Source of the DNA: Candidatus Shapirobacteria bacterium
GTDB taxonomy: Bacteria > Patescibacteriota > Microgenomatia > UBA12405 > UBA6130
DNA length: 43,881 nt
NCBI GenBank assembly: GCA_027039485.1
Contig: JALWDZ010000009.1
Coordinates: 1-43,881 of the forward strand
Reading direction: 5' to 3'
The notes below the pieces were generated by a model. That model was not told the origin of the DNA, searched no databases, and worked only from the letters and a program-made list of their open reading frames with translations. The position numbers and the translations under genes were made by a program. The number at the start of each line of letters is the position of its first letter. Position 1 is the first letter of the stretch. Positions 36,895 to 43,814 of the stretch are shown here, piece by piece.

Positions 36895-37059
36895 GAACCA
36901 AGCCCTAATACTTCACCATTTCTTATATTTTTGTTTCTATCATGTTACATAAATAGGCAAAACCAAAAAAATCCCAAGCACCAAATCCCGAATTTCAAAC
37001 AAATCCAAAATTCAAATGTTCAAAACACTTAAACTGTGTCATTCTGAGCGCCAGCGAAG

Positions 37060-37107
37060 CCCCGAGACGTTCCGCCGTCCGCCAGCTGGCGGACGGCGGA
37101 GTCGGGG
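37060..37107. repeat. GC-rich palindromic repeat, family B (perfect 30-bp palindrome)
   Basis: TCCGCCGTCCGCCAGCTGGCGGACGGCGGA at 37071-37100 flanked by CCCCGA/TCGGGG. Confidence 0.93.
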
Positions 37108-37254: not shown

Positions 37255-37272
37255 CCTGCCTGCGCAGGCAGG
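37255..37272. repeat. GC-rich palindromic repeat, family A (perfect 18-bp palindrome)
   Basis: CCTGCCTGCGCAGGCAGG. Confidence 0.92.
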
Positions 37273-37462
37273 TCTCAGCATCTTCAGCTGGGTGAGCAAC
37301 CACTATTATTGATACAATATCCAACTGAAGATCCCGCTCTTTCTTACGAAAGGGCGGGATAGCAAGAGGTGACGTCTTTTGTTTTGGTCATTTAGTCATT
37401 TGAATTTTGAGCATTGTTTAGAATTTAGGATTTTGGTAATTAGAGTTTGTTTGTGATTTGTT

Positions 37463-37492
37463 ATTTGCCTGCCTACGCAGGCAGGGGATTTG
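37463..37492. repeat. Family A palindrome flanked by 5-bp direct repeats ATTTG
   Basis: ATTTG-cctgcctacgcaggcagggg-ATTTG; matching sequence without the element at 43630-43645 (reverse complement). Confidence 0.8.
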
Positions 37493-37500
37493 GTGCTTAT

Positions 37501-37600
37501 TCAACCTAGTTCCTAGCTCCTAGTTCCTAGTTCTATTTTCGCTTTCCACTTTAACTTCTTTTTCACTTTCCACTTAAACTTTTCACTTTCCGAGTTCTAA
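37501..37600. repeat. Composite CTAGTTCCTAGCTCC / CTTTTCACTTTCCA repeat, second copy
   Basis: caacctagttcctagctcctagttcctagttctattttcgctttccactttaacttctttttcactttcc. Confidence 0.7.
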
Positions 37601-43583: not shown

Positions 43584-43621
43584 AATAACATAAATTCGGA
43601 GCTTAAAGCTCAGAAAATTCC

Positions 43622-43717
43622 AAATACCAAGCACCAAATAACAAACAATACCAAAATCCTAAATTCTAAATCCTAAACAAATACAAATTACCAAATGATC
43701 AAATGACCAAAACAAAA
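43622..43717. repeat. AT-rich dispersed repeat AAGCACCAAATAACAAAC..CCAAAATCCTAAATTCTAAA..AAATGACCAAAACAAAAGAT
   Basis: Similar to reverse complement of 37376-37500 and partly to 36975-37027. Confidence 0.8.
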
Positions 43718-43788
43718 GATAAAAAATAAAGAAAAAAAGAAATGTTTTGAACATTTGGATTTTGGTCATTTGAATTTGTTTAGGATTT
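43668..43788. repeat. Long imperfect inverted repeat (~45-nt arms, 30-nt purine loop)
   Basis: Arms 43668-43713 and 43744-43788. Confidence 0.8.
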
Positions 43789-43814
43789 GGGTCATTGGGC
43801 TGTACCCCATATAC

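Follow-up and report, generated by a model that had tools for sequence, protein, structure and literature searches.

Rickettsia and Wolbachia palindromic elements (RPE and WPE), which are presumed to be selfish, occur both between genes and in frame within conserved protein genes, and the RPE, at about 100-150 bp in length, have invaded RNA genes as well (PMC2229807, PMC3767692). The palindrome described here, CCTGCCTGCGCAGGCAGG, resembles them in being found in intergenic DNA and in frame in conserved genes. Unlike RPE, which are known from Rickettsia and relatives only, it is a perfect palindrome, occurs across Patescibacteria, and is about one-sixth to one-eighth of their size. To our knowledge, an 18-bp protein-coding palindromic element would be the smallest of its kind.

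Among other bacterial repeats, the MITEs (for instance Correia, ERIC and RUP) are short non-autonomous sequences, some of which are translated (PMC2229807). CCTGCCTGCGCAGGCAGG is likewise short and non-autonomous; MITEs, however, consist of an internal region bounded by terminal inverted repeats and as a rule come with a target duplication, whereas CCTGCCTGCGCAGGCAGG has neither feature, the whole unit being one palindrome. Most REPs carry a GTAG or CGTC tag at the foot of the hairpin (Di Nocera et al., PMC3733652). As in REP/RAYT systems, CCTGCCTGCGCAGGCAGG is a short hairpin present in many copies, with Y1 genes in the multi-copy genomes examined, but it is a perfect palindrome, neither end of its hairpin bears an unpaired GTAG or CGTC tag, it often lies in coding sequence, and it has no consistent adjacency to a transposase.

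Tiny palindromes are also a feature of organelle spacer DNA, as in the PstI palindromes of Neurospora and the GC clusters of yeast mitochondria. The short palindromic repeats of Volvox organelles are similarly tiny, and scattered through spacer DNA (PMC2670323). Such organelle palindromes are mostly noncoding, in contrast to CCTGCCTGCGCAGGCAGG, a bacterial palindrome with in-frame copies in protein genes. No description of the palindrome, or of LPAQAG, the peptide it most often encodes, was found in the literature covered, most subscription journals and bioRxiv lying outside that coverage.

An 18-bp palindrome in the window and its genome

The window is the whole 43.9-kb contig analysed, part of a 695-kb source genome (G000). 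At 37458-37498 it reads ttgttATTTG-cctgcctacgcaggcagg-ggATTTGgtgctt, and on re-reading, the letters given in an earlier note on this DNA were borne out, both at the element and in the region of 43630-43645, where AAGCACCAAATAACAAAC is present at 43629-43646. The length of the element had been put at 20 bp in that note; the unit found here is 18 bp, with CCTGCCTGCGCAGGCAGG as its consensus (Table 1). The window matches the palindrome pattern five times where 0.5 would be expected, well above chance, and the source genome holds 18 exact copies of CCTGCCTGCGCAGGCAGG and 29 at up to two mismatches, with no match there to a reversed control motif. A sister genome of the same genus (G001) has twelve exact copies; the two genomes next in relatedness, G002 and G003, have none. 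The predicted fold of CCTGCCTGCGCAGGCAGG as single-stranded DNA is a 7-bp stem closed by a GCGC loop (computed at -6.5 kcal/mol).

Table 1. Positions in the window of the palindromic element, its flanking words and the neighbouring repeats
Feature	Position	Strand	Remarks
Opposite arm of AT-rich inverted repeat, element absent	36974..37034	+	AAGCACCAAATCCC, then non-palindromic sequence
Second palindrome family TCCGCCGTCCGCCAGCTGGCGGACGGCGGA, core TCCGCCAGCTGGCGGA	37071..37100	.	Also at L006, L019, L047, L048, L061 and others
Second copy of the element, exact CCTGCCTGCGCAGGCAGG	37255..37272	.	Adjoins a different intergenic repeat
AT-rich host repeat arm bearing the element	37380..37504	-	Inverted repeats with 36976-37034; homologous arms at many loci
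ATTTG left of the element	37463..37467	+	AT-rich host-repeat word, not a target duplication
18-bp palindromic element CCTGCCTACGCAGGCAGG	37468..37485	.	One base off consensus; bounds from the empty-junction test and the G001 L047 empty site
GGATTTG right of the element	37486..37492	+	Host repeat; pre-insertion minus strand AAATCC^CAAAT
Another AT-rich inverted repeat	43600..43800	.	Includes the paralogue taken in the earlier note as the empty site

Boundaries and empty sites

Forty-one copies were gathered from G000 and G001, and the 31 that lie within AT-rich repeats were retained for a boundary test, in which the flanks were joined under many boundary choices and the joined 14-mer was sought elsewhere in the DNA examined. 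Exact removal of 18 bp, with no duplication, gives a 14-nt junction that is present elsewhere for 16 of the 31 copies. Most adjacent choices yield 0-3 junction matches, and the secondary peaks (at most 11) are consistent with a 7-bp shift, by a single CAAATCC-type word of that repeat. With the window copy taken out, the flanks join as AGCACCAAATCC^CAAATAACAAAT. This empty site is matched exactly over 24 nt at locus L047 of G001, inside a longer similar context, and it retains the GG as well as the second ATTTG. The context AAATCC^CAAAT is likewise present at L017 and L048. Exact 18-bp insertions with empty sites are demonstrated by comparison of loci, and the proposal in the earlier note of a tiny palindromic insertion with an empty site holds on the strength of the 16 junctions and of orthologous genes of other Patescibacteria (see below). 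The empty site that it had named, at 43630-43645, is a different matter, this copy being a paralogue without one CAAATCC word of the repeat.

The same note had read the flanking ATTTG as a 5-bp target duplication, and had suggested that genome-wide copies be examined for flanking direct repeats. Such 5-bp repeats, within three bases of the ends, were found in 7 of the 31 copies, against 6.5 expected when flanks of different copies are mispaired, and a directly adjoining 5-bp repeat was found in none of 115 distinct exact copies, against 0.08 expected. Because direct repeats are at chance level over both sets, and given the L047 site, the ATTTG pair is assigned to the host repeat and the duplication is abandoned. 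A caveat in the note, that part of the ATTTG repeat could belong to the element, was half right: the right-hand ATTTG is no duplication, but it is part of the AT-rich host repeat and not of the element.

The intergenic region that carries the window copy is represented in G001 by a rearranged repeat cluster without the palindrome, and in G002 the repeat cluster is absent, so that neither genome gives a base-exact comparison. Five further comparisons of intergenic regions or gene ends gave no base-exact orthologous empty site.

Insertion-site preference

Where the searches left the flanks free, 33 of 50 copies have R^Y as the dinucleotide that spans the insertion point, mostly A^C or G^T. Beyond this preference, for R at position -1 and for Y at +1, no fixed sequence was found outside the 18 bp. 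A frequent target is CCTAAA^CAAW in AT-rich repeats. Other targets include the middle of the repeat CTTCGACAAG^CTCAGG (L161, and L164 on the opposite strand) and, at L014 and L030, the centre of another hairpin. Hairpins split at the centre in this way include CTGAAA^TTTCAG and CCCGAAA^TTTCGGG, and palindromes nested inside palindromes were observed.

At four loci (L011 1490-1530, L038 260-300, L137 740-780 and L153 1490-1530) the palindrome also lies within a partial tRNA-like sequence, in the region of the D-arm. Intact tRNA genes were considered as targets and rejected, as ARAGORN and Rfam recognise no full gene with the insert either present or removed. At L011, L137 and L153 an intact tRNA gene is found a few hundred bases away.

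Copies inside protein genes

At least 38 copies fall within conserved genes, as identified by Pfam or PDB matches, although some of the host names within a Pfam family are our own reading; Pfam recognises about 30 host genes beyond those for TyrRS, MurD, uL6 and EF-Ts. The hosts include uL6, uS9, EF-Ts, IF-2, TyrRS, SerRS, ValRS, AspRS, TsaD, TrmD, TruB, YbeY and peptidyl-tRNA hydrolase, as well as GyrB (in two species), DnaG, the DNA polymerase III PHP domain, NusA, Fpg and UvrB, the last with two copies in a single gene. Others are SecA (two species), MurA, MurD (two copies), MurE, superoxide dismutase and thioredoxin reductase, with more besides. Clean insertion reaches translation, replication and cell-wall genes over many lineages of Patescibacteria.

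Among the 38 in-gene copies tallied by frame, 31 encode LPAQAG, 5 PACAGR and 2 CLRRQ. As all three frames of the palindrome are open, this bias points to target choice or to selection. Each in-gene copy adds six residues, usually LPAQAG, and would be tolerated, the length being divisible by three and the frames free of stop codons. LPAQAG mostly follows a G, D, N or H residue, which suggests that the protein insertions fall in loops. A recurring LPAQAG insert in Patescibacteria proteins should be given no adaptive reading without proof.

In-frame insertion in conserved genes is borne out by alignment with homologues. In the TyrRS gene of G050, which reads AGC GG[CCTGCCTGCGCAGGCAGG]T AAA AAG, all seven family relatives aligned show identical codon positions and lack the 18 bp, as in AGC GGC AAA AAG. 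The MurD gene of G245 differs from that of G380, of the same genus, by one exact 18-bp insertion at GAT AAC AA^A ATT, with the remaining length identical; the second copy in this gene is within a larger insertion of 51 bp. For uL6 and EF-Ts, a six-residue insertion is evident relative to solved homologues. MurE was set aside as ortholog proof, since the region is rich in indels and offers no clean 18-bp difference, and for the superoxide dismutase of G062 a family homologue was sought and none was found. An argument from conservation, based on species that share the GyrB or SecA site, was dropped because the scan had selected exact copies.

Other translated repeats may be present in these genomes. 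The murD gene of G245 (L166) has several extra in-frame insertions that are absent from relatives, for instance CCTTCGAGCAAAGCTCTCAGGACA-like sequence, which suggests a second translated repeat family. The second Y1 transposase of G000 (L041, contig C26, near 63117) has neighbouring genes in which peptides such as NMLAGASDTNRNMPRKRDDIRPVGD recur in frame, and these look like another translated repeat.

Host range

An all-species scan of GTDB, for which the query was the palindrome followed by CAAW, a suffix that biases the result, returned 71 stretches from about 46 assemblies (counted by accession prefix). The hosts are mostly Patescibacteria, including Kaiserbacteria, Nomurabacteria, Staskawiczbacteria, Uhrbacteria, Liptonbacteria, Woesebacteria, Dojkabacteria and others, with one stretch each labelled Chlorobiota and Deferribacteres. 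Of 380 evenly sampled Patescibacteria genomes, nine hold the exact palindrome, several of them in multiple copies, and the reversed control has no match in any of the 380. The IMG/VR collection yielded 25 stretches with the palindrome, against 2, 0 and 1 for three control palindromes, and since many of the contigs matched are GC-rich, the range probably extends beyond a single phylum. As far as sequence comparison goes, then, the palindrome is an inserted element, and these scans establish that its range is wide and patchy.

Two GC-rich viral contigs provide settings other than AT-rich DNA. In one (L225, at 5636) the exact palindrome is at the centre of a hairpin repeat, ATTCCCGCTTTCG^CGGGAAT, and in the other (L215, at 14008) it is within a CCCGAG^TCCCGAG repeat.

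Possible mechanisms of movement

The element is probably a minimal non-autonomous mobile element, consisting of a single 18-nt hairpin that inserts as exactly 18 bp and makes no target duplication. CCTGCCTGCGCAGGCAGG would insert chiefly where a purine is followed by a pyrimidine, A^C or G^T being the most frequent junctions. Its common targets would be AT-rich repeats, tRNA fragments, other hairpin repeats (at their tips or centres) and the loops of protein genes, and new copies would arise by transposition of the single-stranded hairpin. Neither direct transposition, nor a recent jump in the form of a site polymorphic between strains, was observed. The movement of palindromes becomes a testable question here, the substrate being short enough to synthesise and the insertion sites exact.

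The mover may be a Y1/HUH transposase (RAYT- or IS200-like) acting in trans, a tentative assignment. HUH/Y1 chemistry (IS200/IS605) makes no target duplication, and this is the reason why such an enzyme is the most plausible one. An IS200/IS605-type substrate would insert without duplication beside a short fixed target; the insertions described here have no duplication, but their site preference extends only to R^Y, mostly A^C or G^T. The earlier note had called for a search for a RAYT/Y1-HUH gene; Y1 genes do occur in G000, which encodes two such proteins at C13:12495 and C26:63117, but they are found in genomes without the palindrome as well. For instance, Y1 matches were obtained in all six multi-copy genomes tested (weakly in G062) and also in about two thirds of palindrome-free genomes, and Y1 genes are missing from three single-copy genomes. 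No close relatives of the two Y1 genes of G000 were found in the flanks examined at 71 public loci, the palindrome lies in the examined flank of only one of 22 Y1 loci (L150 in G001, about 1 kb from the gene), and regular flanking of transposase genes by the palindrome was found neither at the Y1 loci nor at the 71 public loci. Thus, with presence not discriminating and adjacency not consistent, Y1/RAYT was rejected as a proven mover. It may also be, though on balance this is unlikely, that the palindrome represents a new class of mobile DNA, in which a bare 18-nt hairpin is spread by a process without a known transposase, crosses bacterial lineages and repeatedly rewrites essential genes through LPAQAG.

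Spread with no transposase at all, the hairpin being copied as DNA is replicated or repaired, is a serious competing explanation, if on balance an unlikely one. Here, template switching, hairpin-primed synthesis or gene conversion between hairpin tips would generate new copies, as has been proposed for the organelle palindromes. Insertions at hairpin centres and in the middle of CTTCGACAAG^CTCAGG, the nested palindromes and the absence of a consistent enzyme association all agree with hairpin copying. However, inserts are also found in ordinary protein-gene sequence with no similarity to the source, and the exact length of the insertion in comparable cases is better suited to a cutting enzyme.

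The remaining explanations fare much worse. A terminator or regulatory hairpin maintained by selection in intergenic regions would account for the stability of the hairpin and for the many intergenic copies, but it is very improbable in view of the many copies within genes in a preferred frame, and because, at the loci compared, the palindrome is absent from the orthologous intergenic sites of sister species. Hardly any credence attaches to a REP/MITE-like insertion that duplicated 5 bp of its target, ATTTG, a reading which is suggested by ATTTG on both sides of the window copy and once in the paralogue, and is contradicted by direct repeats at chance frequency, by insertions in genes that add exactly 18 bp, and by the correct empty site in G001. 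The case is equally poor for a DNA-uptake or chromosome-organising signal that arose by point mutation under selection: the motif is short and perfectly conserved in coding and noncoding DNA alike, but there are just 1-18 exact copies per genome, most relatives are without the palindrome, and the copies are insertions relative to homologues rather than substitutions. An artefact of sequencing or assembly, such as an adaptor or a chimera, could be suspected because the hosts are nearly all metagenome assemblies, but it is the least credible explanation given exact, frame-preserving insertions from many independent projects, their concentration in one phylum, the existence of degenerate copies and the absence of the reversed-control motif.

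Neighbouring repeats

The AT-rich inverted repeats that host the element form a family with CCTAAACAAAT words, which occurs genome-wide and, in the window, at 36974-37034, 37380-37504 and 43600-43800 (Table 1). Sites matching CTAAACAAW number 87 in G000, 126 in G001 and 20 in G002, and are often arranged in opposed pairs with a spacing of about 90-115 bp. The second palindrome family, with the TCCGCCAGCTGGCGGA core, is inserted in the same AT repeat in the arrangement CCTAA, palindrome, CTAAACAA, with a net gain of 20 bp and an apparent duplication of CTAA, and is also nested at the centres of longer palindromes. A third family, CCCCGACGTNACGTCGGGG, is found at L001, L005, L006, L012, L033, L040, L046 and L047, where it adjoins or is fused with the CCTGCC element, and it often has CAGG directly after it. 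Lastly, a copy at L003 (position 820) has the arrangement CCTAAA, palindrome, GAATTTGG, the left half being of one host-repeat type and the right half of another, which suggests recombination through the palindrome.
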